Shown here: positions 49,191 to 58,521 of the stretch, in pieces
Layout of the letters: each line of letters opens with the position of its first letter
Numbering within the stretch: the first letter of the stretch is position 1
NCBI RefSeq assembly: GCF_016097415.1
Contig: NZ_JAEHGE010000001.1
Span: forward strand, 1,971,157-2,035,156
Direction of reading: 5' to 3'
Length of the DNA: 64,000 nt
Origin: a sulfur-oxidizing endosymbiont of Gigantopelta aegis
Lineage (GTDB): Bacteria; Pseudomonadota; Gammaproteobacteria; GRL18
Notes under the pieces: model-generated
What the model was told of the DNA's origin: nothing
What the model saw: the letters and a program-made list of their open reading frames with translations, nothing else
Database searches by the model: none
Translations under genes and position numbers: made by a program

Positions 49191-49751
49191 ATGACTGAAG
49201 TTCTTCAAAACGCACTTGCCGGTCGTCATTCGGTTGATGAAACATCAAATCATACCAGTGACAGAGGGCAAAATGGCGTTCGAGATAGGCAAGCGTTAAA
49301 TGAGGGAACTCAGGATTCGATTCTGGGTACGGTTAATATTTCATTTAATGCACAAATGCGTCTGCAAGCTTATCAAGAACAAAAGAATCAGCTTGTTATG
49401 GGTGATGTGCAGCCGTTGAGTAAGGAACCGCTTCAAGCATTAGAACAAAAGCCTTCACAATTATTAAATAAACCATTGGCAAGTGAGCTTTCAAGCAAAA
49501 TTACCAACATGTTAACGGAAGTTGAAAATAATATTGTGCAATCATCTGAACCTGGTTATCGCTACTTGGTCAATATGCTGAACAATTATGGAACCAAGCT
49601 AGAAGATCCTGGCCAACTGCAGGAAGTGATGCGTAAAGAAGAATTTTACCTGAATCGGCGCAAGGCCTTTATGGATAGTTCAGAGTATCAAAGTTATAGT
49701 CAGGTGCTGAATCAATTTTCCAATATTATTGGGCGGCAACAATATGCCTAA
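49191..49751 (+). CDS. Unrecognised protein following the second flagellin
   Basis: 186 residues, no family recognised. The first 90 residues are polar and probably disordered (SDRGQNGVRDRQALNEGTQD); residues about 100-186 are helical and charged (LASELSSKITNMLTEVENNI, VMRKEEFYLNRRKAFMDSSE). No signal peptide or membrane segment. It starts 25 bases after the flagellin, with GAGGC upstream, so is probably cotranscribed and could be a flagellar chaperone, exported accessory or regulator. That is inference from position. Confidence 0.75.
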   Translation: MTEVLQNALAGRHSVDETSNHTSDRGQNGVRDRQALNEGTQDSILGTVNISFNAQMRLQAYQEQKNQLVMGDVQPLSKEPLQALEQKPSQLLNKPLASELSSKITNMLTEVENNIVQSSEPGYRYLVNMLNNYGTKLEDPGQLQEVMRKEEFYLNRRKAFMDSSEYQSYSQVLNQFSNIIGRQQYA

Positions 49752-49892: not shown

Positions 49893-49919
49893 TAAAGCTT
49901 TTTTGCTTTTAGCCGAATC
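49893..49919 (+). promoter_or_regulatory. Sigma-28 (FliA) type promoter before the receptor-like gene
   Basis: TAAAGCTT (49893-49900), an 11-base spacer and GCCGAATC (49912-49919) match the sigma-28 pattern TAAAGTTT-N11-GCCGATAA with correct spacing. It lies 39 bases before the gene at 49958, placing that gene and the following ODP-like gene in the flagellar/chemotaxis regulon. Confidence 0.75.
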
Positions 49920-49957
49920 ATTATTTATACGCTTTTATTTTTATTTGGGAAAGAATC

Positions 49958-50584
49958 ATGTCGATAAATAACAAGTCAATGGATGCCAGTGCCAGGCAAT
50001 TTTTAGCCGTTGCTTCTGTTCAGGCAGAATTGTTTGCCGTTAAACAGATATCCAAACGCATTTCACTCAGTGCCAAAAATGCCAAAGCCATTGCTGCCCG
50101 TGCGGGTAGTCAGGCGATGGGGTTTCATCCGATTACTGATTTCATTGATGATGTGGCAATTAATATTACCCAACTAGTCGAAAAAATTAATGCTGAAGCC
50201 TTAAAATTATCCAGTTTCGCCATTTCTAATCGCAATCGCAGTAAGACTATCGAGCAAATGATGGCAGCCAGAGAAGATATGCTGAAATATGCGGATCATA
50301 ATGGCATTAAAAAGCGCTTAGATGAATTAGAAAAAATGAAAAAACAATTTCTAATTGATTATGGTCGGAAAAATGGGGATCTTTTAGAGCTTTTAGCTGA
50401 AATTAGAAATCAATTACAGGCCGCTGAAATGATTTGTACGACTTCACGTACCGAAGCAACCAGGGCCGGGGATTTTCAATCAAATTTAGAAGTAGTGGCC
50501 GATGAAGTGTCCATTGCCGTTAATAATATTAAAGATACCTTACAAAGTAGTAAGTACCATTTATCGCAATTGTCATTACGCTAA
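49958..50584 (+). CDS. Soluble chemoreceptor-like signalling protein
   Basis: 208 residues, no membrane segment or signal peptide. The N-terminal 100 residues (QISKRISLSAKNAKAIAARA, GSQAMGFHPITDFIDDVAIN, ITQLVEKINAEALKLSSFAI) resemble part of the methyl-accepting chemotaxis protein cytoplasmic helices. The remainder is coiled coil with a C-terminal helix (EVVADEVSIAVNNIKDTLQS). The hairpin tip that binds CheA/CheW is not obvious, so it is degenerate or atypical. Its sigma-28 promoter and the downstream ODP-like gene point to a role in chemotaxis signalling. Confidence 0.7.
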   Translation: MSINNKSMDASARQFLAVASVQAELFAVKQISKRISLSAKNAKAIAARAGSQAMGFHPITDFIDDVAINITQLVEKINAEALKLSSFAISNRNRSKTIEQMMAAREDMLKYADHNGIKKRLDELEKMKKQFLIDYGRKNGDLLELLAEIRNQLQAAEMICTTSRTEATRAGDFQSNLEVVADEVSIAVNNIKDTLQSSKYHLSQLSLR

Positions 50585-50630
50585 CAAGCGTGACATTAAG
50601 TAATAATTAAATTGATTAGAGAACAGAATA

Positions 50631-51368
50631 ATGATTACACAAACAATATATGATGGCAGTTATCAATGGATTATCATGGGTAGGGATCCGGACAAACCAG
50701 GGAAAATAATTGATACCAACCAATATATTATTAAAGATGGTAATAGGACACTATTACTTGATCCCGGTGGTATGGAGATTTTTTCATCGGTACTGGCTGC
50801 GACATTGAGTGTTTCAAAATTGGAAAATATTACCGATATTTTTGCTTCTCATCAGGATCCAGACATTATTTCTTCCCTGGGTCTATGGCATGAGATGTTA
50901 CCGGATATACGTTTACATGCATCGGTTCTTTGGGAAGGTTTTATTCGTCATTTTAGTAGTGGTGATGTGACTTACGTTCCCATTGACGATAAAGGCGGTA
51001 GTATTCGTCTGGAATCGGTCGAATTGCAATTTATTCCGGCGCATTACTTACACTCTTCTGCTAACTTTAATGTCTATGATCCGAATGCAAAAATATTGAT
51101 GAGCGGTGATATTGGTGCGGCTTTGGAAGCACCGGGTTCGCCCATGTTTGTCGATGATTTTGATAGTCATAAAGAGAAAATGCGTTTTTTCCATAAACGC
51201 TGGATGCCTTCTAATGAAGCCAAGCGTGATTGGGTGCGTCGAGTGAGAGAGCTGGATATTGATATTATGGCACCGCAGCATGGTCGCATGTTCAGAGGGG
51301 ATGATGTAAAGCGCTTTTTGGACTGGTTTGAAGCCTTAGATGTGGGTGTGGCGATTCATGGTGGTTAA
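50631..51368 (+). CDS. Metallo-beta-lactamase-fold diiron protein, ODP type
   Basis: 245 residues of the flavodiiron-like metallo-beta-lactamase fold without a flavodoxin domain. Metal-ligand positions are visible: FASHQDPDI (H-x-D instead of HxHxDH), IPAHYLHSSANFNVYDP, MSGDIGAAL and APQHGRMFRG. This pattern is that of oxygen-binding diiron proteins, which in Treponema denticola act as oxygen sensors for chemotaxis. It follows the receptor-like gene by 46 bases and precedes a terminator, so the two form a two-gene unit. Confidence 0.85.
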   Translation: MITQTIYDGSYQWIIMGRDPDKPGKIIDTNQYIIKDGNRTLLLDPGGMEIFSSVLAATLSVSKLENITDIFASHQDPDIISSLGLWHEMLPDIRLHASVLWEGFIRHFSSGDVTYVPIDDKGGSIRLESVELQFIPAHYLHSSANFNVYDPNAKILMSGDIGAALEAPGSPMFVDDFDSHKEKMRFFHKRWMPSNEAKRDWVRRVRELDIDIMAPQHGRMFRGDDVKRFLDWFEALDVGVAIHGG

Positions 51369-51396
51369 TTGAGTGGCTTATTTTTCATGAACAGTT

Positions 51397-51422
51397 AAAA
51401 ACCTGCCTTGCAGGTTTTTTTT
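51397..51422 (+). terminator. Intrinsic terminator after the ODP-type gene
   Basis: ACCTGC (51401-51406) pairs with GCAGGT (51410-51415) around CTT, flanked by A4 and a run of eight T. It closes the receptor-like/ODP unit. Confidence 0.9.
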
Positions 51423-51508
51423 ATGTGCCTTGAAAATAGCACGAAAAAACCCAATATTACGCTTATAACGAGTTAATAATTGAATATAAGTAATGGTTGA
51501 TATACTAT

Positions 51509-51820
51509 ATGATTGTCCAGACATTAATTGAAAAAAAATTACAGCAAGCTTTTACACCGACTTATTTATTGGTTGAAAATGAAAGCCATACGCACAATGT
51601 ACCAGCAGGTTCAGAAAGTCACTTTAAAGTACAAATTGTATCAGATGAATTTGATGGCCAGATGCTGATAAAACGCCATCGTGCAGTCAATAAGGTACTA
51701 GCGGAAGAATTAGCAGGCACAATTCATGCCTTGTCGATGCATACTTTTACTCAGGATGAATGGCAGCAGCGCAATGGTCAGGTACAAGAGTCACCGCCCT
51801 GTCATGGTGGTGGTAAGTAA
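51509..51820 (+). CDS. bolA: BolA-family protein
   Basis: About 103 residues. BolA fold: N-terminal MIVQTLIEKKLQQAFTPTYL, ESHTHNVPAGSESHFKVQIV and the conserved KRHRAVNKVLAEELAGTIHA, HALSMHTFTQDEW. The frame extends upstream to a TTG at 51497; the ATG at 51509 fits the family N-terminus. BolA proteins partner monothiol glutaredoxins in iron-sulfur biology and affect morphology and biofilm. The C-terminus contains CHGGGK, and GGTGGTGGTAA is duplicated across its stop codon. Confidence 0.9.
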   Translation: MIVQTLIEKKLQQAFTPTYLLVENESHTHNVPAGSESHFKVQIVSDEFDGQMLIKRHRAVNKVLAEELAGTIHALSMHTFTQDEWQQRNGQVQESPPCHGGGK

Positions 51821-57813: not shown

Positions 57814-58521
57814 ATGACTATGTATTCATCTGAAGGCAAAGAAATTGCTGAGCAACTGGTGGAGAAATATGCACCACTGGTAAAAAAAATTGCTTATCAT
57901 ATGTCGGCACGCTTGCCAGCAGATATCCACATAGATGATATTATTCAATCAGGACTCATTGGCTTGTTAGATGCCGGTAAAAACTATGATCCCAGTCAGG
58001 GAGCTCAATTTGAAACCTATGCTACGATCCGTATTCGCGGTGCGATTCTGGATGAAGTGAGACGCAGTGACTGGGCACCCAAATCGGTGCATAAAAAAGC
58101 CCGTGACCTGAGTGCGACTATTCAGGAAATTGAGCGTCGCACGGGCAGGGATGCACGGGATATTGAAGTGGCTCAGGAAATGGGCATCAGCATTAGTGAT
58201 TATTACCAAATTTTAAAAGACAGTAGCTCATGTCGCATGCTGAGTTTTGATGATCTCGGCGTTGATGACACTCAAAGCCTAGGGATTTTTGAAGATAGAC
58301 AGCAAAATGTGGTGGCTGAAGTCCTGCAAAATGAGTTTCATCAACGTTTAGCTCAGGCTATATCGGGGCTTCCAGAGCGCGAACGCATGGTGATGTCCCT
58401 ATACTATGACACTGAAATGAACTTAAAAGAAGTGGGCGTATTGATTGGTATCAGTGAATCACGTGTCAGTCAATTATTGAGTCAGGCACAATTGCGCTTA
58501 CGCGCCCGGATTATGGACTAA
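57814..58521 (+). CDS. fliA: Flagellar sigma factor FliA (sigma-28)
   Basis: 235 residues, the normal length. Region 2 (VEKYAPLVKKIAYHMSARLP, DDIIQSGLIGLLDAGKNYDP), region 3 (DEVRRSDWAPKSVHKKARDL) and region 4 (GLPERERMVMSLYYDTEMNL, IGISESRVSQLLSQAQLRLR). It directs transcription of late flagellar and chemotaxis genes; two candidate target promoters are seen at 28201 and 49893. The anti-sigma factor gene flgM is not in the window. Confidence 0.97.
   Translation: MTMYSSEGKEIAEQLVEKYAPLVKKIAYHMSARLPADIHIDDIIQSGLIGLLDAGKNYDPSQGAQFETYATIRIRGAILDEVRRSDWAPKSVHKKARDLSATIQEIERRTGRDARDIEVAQEMGISISDYYQILKDSSSCRMLSFDDLGVDDTQSLGIFEDRQQNVVAEVLQNEFHQRLAQAISGLPERERMVMSLYYDTEMNLKEVGVLIGISESRVSQLLSQAQLRLRARIMD

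Follow-up and report, generated by a model that had tools for sequence, protein, structure and literature searches.

Organization of the locus

The window, a term that denotes here the whole 64-kb stretch of DNA analysed, accommodates two adjacent genes on the forward strand, preceded by a sigma-28-type promoter and followed by an intrinsic terminator (Table 1). A sequence-only reading of the region had delimited two open reading frames, and both are present as described: positions 49958–50584 encode a protein of 208 residues and positions 50631–51368 one of 245 residues, assigned below to the oxygen-binding diiron protein (ODP) family. The terminator that the same reading placed after the second gene is equally clear, with a 10-pair stem at 51397–51419 and T's beyond it. 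The neighbours of the pair in the window are fliK and a flagellin gene. A 186-residue open reading frame at 49191–49751, between the flagellin gene and the pair, has no match in Pfam or NCBIfam, and a BolA-family gene is found at 51518–51820, past the terminator; a similar frame follows the pair in another locus (L022). The genome encodes two sigma factors of the FliA/sigma-28 type (57814–58521 in the window and L106:4477–5205, scoring 287 and 309 bits against the NCBIfam FliA model) as against a single fliM.

Table 1. Features of the gene pair and its boundaries, in window coordinates
Feature	Position	Strand	Basis
Sigma-28 (FliA)-type promoter, TAAAGCTT-N11-GCCGAATC	49893..49919	+	Sequence and conservation; the single match is weak by chance
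Soluble double-tip mini-receptor, 208 aa, predicted single-chain four-helix rod	49958..50584	+	Open reading frame, AlphaFold, MCP-tip homology of both halves
Tip motif 1, residues 32–74, core SLSAKNAKAIAARAGSQAMGFHPITDFID	50051..50179	+	hhalign to MCP tip; near-invariant in family
Tip motif 2, residues 150–190, core ICTTSRTEATRAGDFQSNLEVVADEV	50405..50527	+	hhalign to the same MCP columns; near-invariant in own family
Oxygen-binding diiron protein (ODP), 245 aa	50631..51368	+	PF19583; solved chains 6qrq and 6qnm
Predicted diiron ligands H74, D76, D78, H141, D160, H217	50850..51281	+	Invariance in 11 diverse partnered ODPs; flavodiiron pattern
Intrinsic terminator	51397..51424	+	10-pair stem (51397–51419), 3-nt loop, T-run

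The promoter deserves separate consideration. The pattern TAAAG..T..GCCGA occurs once without mismatch in the 64 kb, and since chance alone would yield approximately 1.2 occurrences over this length when one mismatch is allowed, the single occurrence is weak. The site agrees with the TAAA-N15-GCCGATAA-type sigma-28 form at 9 of 12 positions. It becomes strong through its conservation: across 11 upstream regions from three genera the arrangement TAAAG-N14-GCCGA retains both blocks unchanged and at fixed spacing, while the flanks have diverged, a pattern that speaks for the sigma-28-type promoter proposed at this position. Promoter statistics computed locus by locus reached no significance for most loci, and outside the family to which the window belongs the site is patchy and not evident in all families.

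The diiron protein

ODPs are known for oxygen sensing in bacterial chemotaxis and are distinguished by the reversible binding of O2 as a stable peroxo species. Judged by profile match and metal ligands, the product of the second gene can be identified as a true ODP, as the sequence-only reading had maintained. In a Pfam profile search residues 27–218 match PF19583 with an E-value of 2.7e-71 (239.9 bits against a cut-off of 27.2), and of the solved chains 6qrq (E 2.6e-65) and 6qnm (E 3.3e-51) come closest, both of them named oxygen-binding diiron protein. The six predicted ligands align with those two chains, fit the flavodiiron pattern H-x-E/D-x-D, H, D, H and are all invariant among 11 diverse partnered ODPs. 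With 245 residues and Pfam matches solely to ODP and Lactamase_B, the protein has no flavodoxin/FMN domain.

Two chemoreceptor tips in one chain

The first gene had been read as encoding a soluble, receptor-like helical protein. A search with the chemoreceptor signalling profile PF00015 (MCPsignal) does return a match, but at 18.3 bits (E 0.002) it stays below the family cut-off of 34.6. Around residues 41 and 163 the protein contains the motifs NAKAIAARAGSQAMGFHPITDFI and SRTEATRAGDFQSNLEVVADEV, respectively, both of them reminiscent of the stretch that chemoreceptors conserve best. An alignment of 21 members of the partner family, with identities down to 28%, was therefore compared, each half separately, with an alignment of ten MCPs from the window genome and its relatives. 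The N-terminal half (residues 20–84) aligns without gaps to the MCP tip with an hhalign score of 47.9 (E 3.6e-7), and the C-terminal half (134–207) aligns, again without gaps, to the identical MCP columns with a score of 38.9 (E 1.3e-5), so that both halves match in the same register. Coiled-coil coincidence was ruled out as the source of these scores: the best values from 150 column-shuffled MCP profiles were 24.7 and 18.9 for the N- and C-terminal halves, reversed profiles gave 12.3 and 16.5, and MCP arms devoid of the tip reached at most 19.9. When searched against 398 genomes, the partner family profile also retrieves long, MCP-sized open frames at E ~1e-7, aligned on the tip region; no relative was found among the sequences of the PDB.

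By profile-profile homology, the 208-residue protein thus contains the hairpin tip of chemoreceptors twice, which substantiates its likeness to receptors. It is not classed as an MCP, as it falls short of the family cut-off and departs from the one-tip architecture. Likewise, the description as a soluble helical partner holds insofar as searches of the chain revealed neither a membrane segment nor a sensor domain, and fails insofar as the protein is no generic helical bundle.

Tip 1 is near-invariant in the family, with N41, G50, F56 and P58-I63 highly conserved, and tip 2 is near-invariant in the family of the window. By the mapping adopted here, tip 1 keeps N41, R48 and F56 as the counterparts of Tsr N381, R388 and F396 and does not keep those of the trimer-contact residues F373, E385, V398 and E402. 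Formation of classical trimers by this protein is consequently doubtful, and it may not join arrays in the canonical manner.

AlphaFold predicts four helices (residues 10–53, 56–108, 115–167 and 171–206) with mean pLDDT values of 83 and 86 from alignments of 12 and 21 sequences respectively, a shallow input for a class of fold, the helical bundle, that is easily predicted as compact. Helices 1 and 3 are each followed by a predicted turn that coincides with a tip motif or adjoins it; the turn in between (109–114) maps to a variable part of the family alignment. This placement of turns leads to the expectation that both tips lie at the same end, and the partner should be one four-helix rod with its tips together. 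The predicted arms span ~36–53 residues, about 50 per arm, and would leave no room for methylation helices. Such a rod would be roughly as large as the signalling subdomain of a receptor, which in Tsr runs from the glycine hinge up to the tip. On the model, the partner looks like a natural single-chain 'pseudo-dimer' of the receptor signalling tip, stripped of membrane, sensor and methylation regions. Structural comparison was not used as proof, four-helix bundles being common: Foldseek does not rank MCPs first (the best MCP cytoplasmic domain is 2ch7, E 0.24), and the top VIA-align matches are generic four-helix bundles with a Z of 16.

Conservation of the gene pair

The association of the two genes is strict. 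In the family of the window the partner is present in 15 of 24 genomes, with an ODP gene directly downstream in all of them. In a sample of the class it occurs in 19 of 369 genomes, distributed over 13 genera and 12 families; each of the 19 carriers has the ODP gene immediately downstream, whereas the other flanking genes differ. A search of a plasmid collection yielded one named carrier, Pseudoalteromonas xiamenensis, where the two genes, under the locus tags NI389_RS18885 and NI389_RS18890, overlap by 4 bp and the record annotates them solely as 'chemotaxis protein' and 'MBL fold metallo-hydrolase'; two further genomes show the same order. Altogether, the partner is located directly upstream of the ODP in 35 of 35 loci examined, which bears out the proposed pairing. 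The sequence-only reading had named the joint absence of an MCP match and of co-occurrence as evidence against itself; what was found is a sub-threshold match and a conserved pair. The reverse dependence is looser: ODPs are encoded in 78 of the 369 class genomes, and those without a double-tip partner of the window's family outnumber those with one. No certain full-length partner was recovered outside Gammaproteobacteria in a phylum-wide sample.

A second, diverged double-tip family, represented by a profile of six sequences, matches the family of the window over its full length (E 3.3e-14), and both of its halves match the MCP tip (E 4e-7 and 8e-5). Members of this family lie upstream of DTNE-type ODPs at L104:2381–2959, L109:9630–10244, L058:2163–2795 and L120:2362–2967, three of them inside che clusters. 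With gene names read from the sequences, the orders are CheW-partner-ODP-CheR-CheB in L104, CheW-partner-ODP-CheR-CheD-CheB in L109 and CheB-like-partner-ODP-CheR in L058. Other ODP genes (L114, L117, L118 and L111) have directly before them a small open reading frame that, read from its sequence, resembles roadblock/LC7, which suggests that such proteins may be another kind of ODP partner.

Association with the F7 chemosensory system

The window genome contains two CheA genes. One belongs to a flagellar cluster (L106: FliA-CheY-CheZ-CheA-Mot) and the other to a cluster with the order STAS-CheY-CheA-CheW-ParA-receptor-CheR-CheD-CheB-STAS (L105), which agrees for the most part with the one published for stage-1 F7 systems (PMC7184735). 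The receptor of the latter (L105:3403–6069 on G000:C1, minus strand) has the architecture Globin-PAS-PAS-HAMP-MCP. Its best NCBIfam match is Aer2, with an E-value of 1.9e-236 that nonetheless lies below the strict cut-off, and its C-terminus, EWEEF, agrees with the motif described for the CheR tether of Aer2-like receptors (PMC7184735). The F7 receptor of this genome is accordingly Aer2-like and carries an additional globin domain.

The pair tracks the Aer2/F7 chemosensory system, not flagella as such. In the window's family an F7-type CheA, called at a dimerisation-domain score of E <=1.1e-20, is present in 15 of 15 pair carriers and in none of the nine other genomes (Fisher p 7.6e-7), and in the class an Aer2-type receptor, called at an E-value of at most 1e-110, is present in 19 of 19 carriers against 107 of all 369 genomes (p 1.8e-11 by genome, ~6e-7 by family); these statistics depend in part on phylogeny, the genomes being related and some of them incomplete, and score cut-offs take the place of a CheA phylogeny. 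Five relatives (G001, G002, G011, G014 and G015, four of them incomplete) possess flagellin and a flagellar-type CheA and lack both an F7-type CheA and the pair; a generic flagellar link was set aside on this ground. The pair type of the window mostly lies apart from the F7 operon, and in G270 (L107) it is located inside an F7-like cluster.

A sigma-28-type site also precedes the F7 chemosensory operon, at L105:10761–10786 and in relatives, amounting to 13 genomes from three genera. The window genome and seven relatives carry TAAAG-N14-ACCGATA upstream of the STAS gene, and five genomes of another genus carry the form TAAAGCTTTAA...CCGATAG; as background, the pattern searched for turns up 2 times over 365 kb of strand. 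In the genus of the window, sigma-28-type upstream sites are thus common to the pair and the F7 operon, and the shared promoter motif suggests that, in the window's family, both may be under common control with late flagellar genes.

Comparison with known systems

The arrangement of an ODP with a sensorless receptor is already known. In Treponema denticola the ODP TDE2498 is genetically coupled, like the ODP of the window, to a soluble receptor without membrane or sensor region, TDE2496, which can modulate CheA; deletion of the ODP changes the order of CheA in the arrays (PMC7666581). TDE2496 is described as an MCP homolog lacking only the transmembrane and sensing modules (PMC7666581), whereas the window partner has two tips on one short chain, is gammaproteobacterial and is tied to F7. 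A further sensorless soluble receptor is Tm14 of Thermotoga maritima (3g67, 3g6b), which is similar in length (213 residues). In Tm14 one stretch of the chain, 40–148, matches MCPs and corresponds to one central tip, and a second chain is needed for a four-helix bundle; the window partner differs in having a tip in each half. The same distinction applies to MCPs at large. Both halves of the partner are homologous to the hairpin tip covered by PF00015, but MCPs have one central tip per chain and long arms with methylation helices, while the partner scores below the family cut-off, contains two tips per chain and has short predicted arms devoid of methylation helices.

The main text of the F7 study makes no mention of ODPs and treats the function of the ancestral F7 system as unsettled (PMC7184735). 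No description of a double-tip single-chain receptor, or of its link to F7, was found in the open-licence literature. Campylobacter CheO, which connects oxygen with chemotaxis, was set aside as a related case, since no sensory domain is known in it and its distribution is limited to Campylobacterota (PMC9665402).

A candidate input module and its alternatives

The first interpretation of the locus stands with respect to the ODP, the receptor-like partner, their pairing and the sigma-28-type promoter, and is amended with respect to the generic helical partner, now replaced by a protein with two tips, and to the proposed link with the polar flagellum, in whose place the pair tracks Aer2/F7. The reading favoured here, at a probability of approximately 0.6, is that the two genes form a module through which an oxygen/iron input reaches a chemosensory kinase, probably that of F7. 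As in T. denticola, the reduced diiron site of the ODP would bind O2. The ODP would dock on the rod, passing on the status of O2 or iron; the tips of the docked rod would then change their engagement with CheW/CheA of the chemosensory array and so tune CheA. The target would most likely be the F7 array with its globin-PAS Aer2-like receptor. Without methylation helices, the rod would be expected to provide an input that does not adapt. A broader proposition has somewhat better than even odds: that the partners form a family of single-chain, monomeric mini-chemoreceptors, which mimic a dimer through a duplicated tip and serve as a plug-in for diiron-based O2/iron control of the F7 kinase, with at least two branches, one of them inserted between CheW and CheR/CheD/CheB.

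Might the pair instead feed the flagellar F6 array directly, in ordinary aerotaxis, with the F7 link reflecting, indirectly, a lifestyle that is aerobic and motile? The sigma-28-type promoter and the adjoining fliK and flagellin genes are in keeping with this scenario, as is the association of F7-encoded McpA-like receptors with the F6 array (PMC7184735). It is judged unlikely in view of the perfect F7 association in the samples, the related pairs inside F7-like clusters and the five flagellated relatives, four of them incomplete, that have neither F7-type CheA nor the pair. Less probable still is a role of the double-tip protein as a decoy or modulator that binds CheW or receptor tips and, under control of the ODP, competes with receptors and disorders or remodels the array. 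Two divergent tips on one short rod without an adaptation region would suit such a function, and in T. denticola deletion of the ODP alters CheA ordering although the ODP has no visible integral position in the array (PMC7666581). The conservation of tip 1 (N41, G50, F56, P58-I63), however, suggests a specific, productive interface.

A last alternative regards the ODP mainly as an enzyme, a detoxifying protein akin to O2 or NO reductases, with the helical partner as a scaffold whose receptor resemblance is an evolutionary relic. The fold is indeed related to that of flavodiiron NO/O2 reductases, and many other ODPs occur without such a partner. Yet the protein has neither a flavodoxin domain nor rubredoxin, its closest solved relatives are ODPs, and strict conservation of the tips and the che-cluster contexts weigh against a relic, making this explanation very improbable.

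Implications

The accepted picture of a chemoreceptor is a dimer of hairpins. If the proposed architecture is true, a receptor made of one chain shows that evolution has produced a minimal signalling tip, and such a tip would be useful in structural work on the receptor-CheA-CheW core. With a conserved ODP pair whose distribution follows that of F7, an oxygen/iron input to this system becomes directly testable; the pair also carries the association of an ODP with a receptor, known in detail from T. denticola, over to many gammaproteobacteria.
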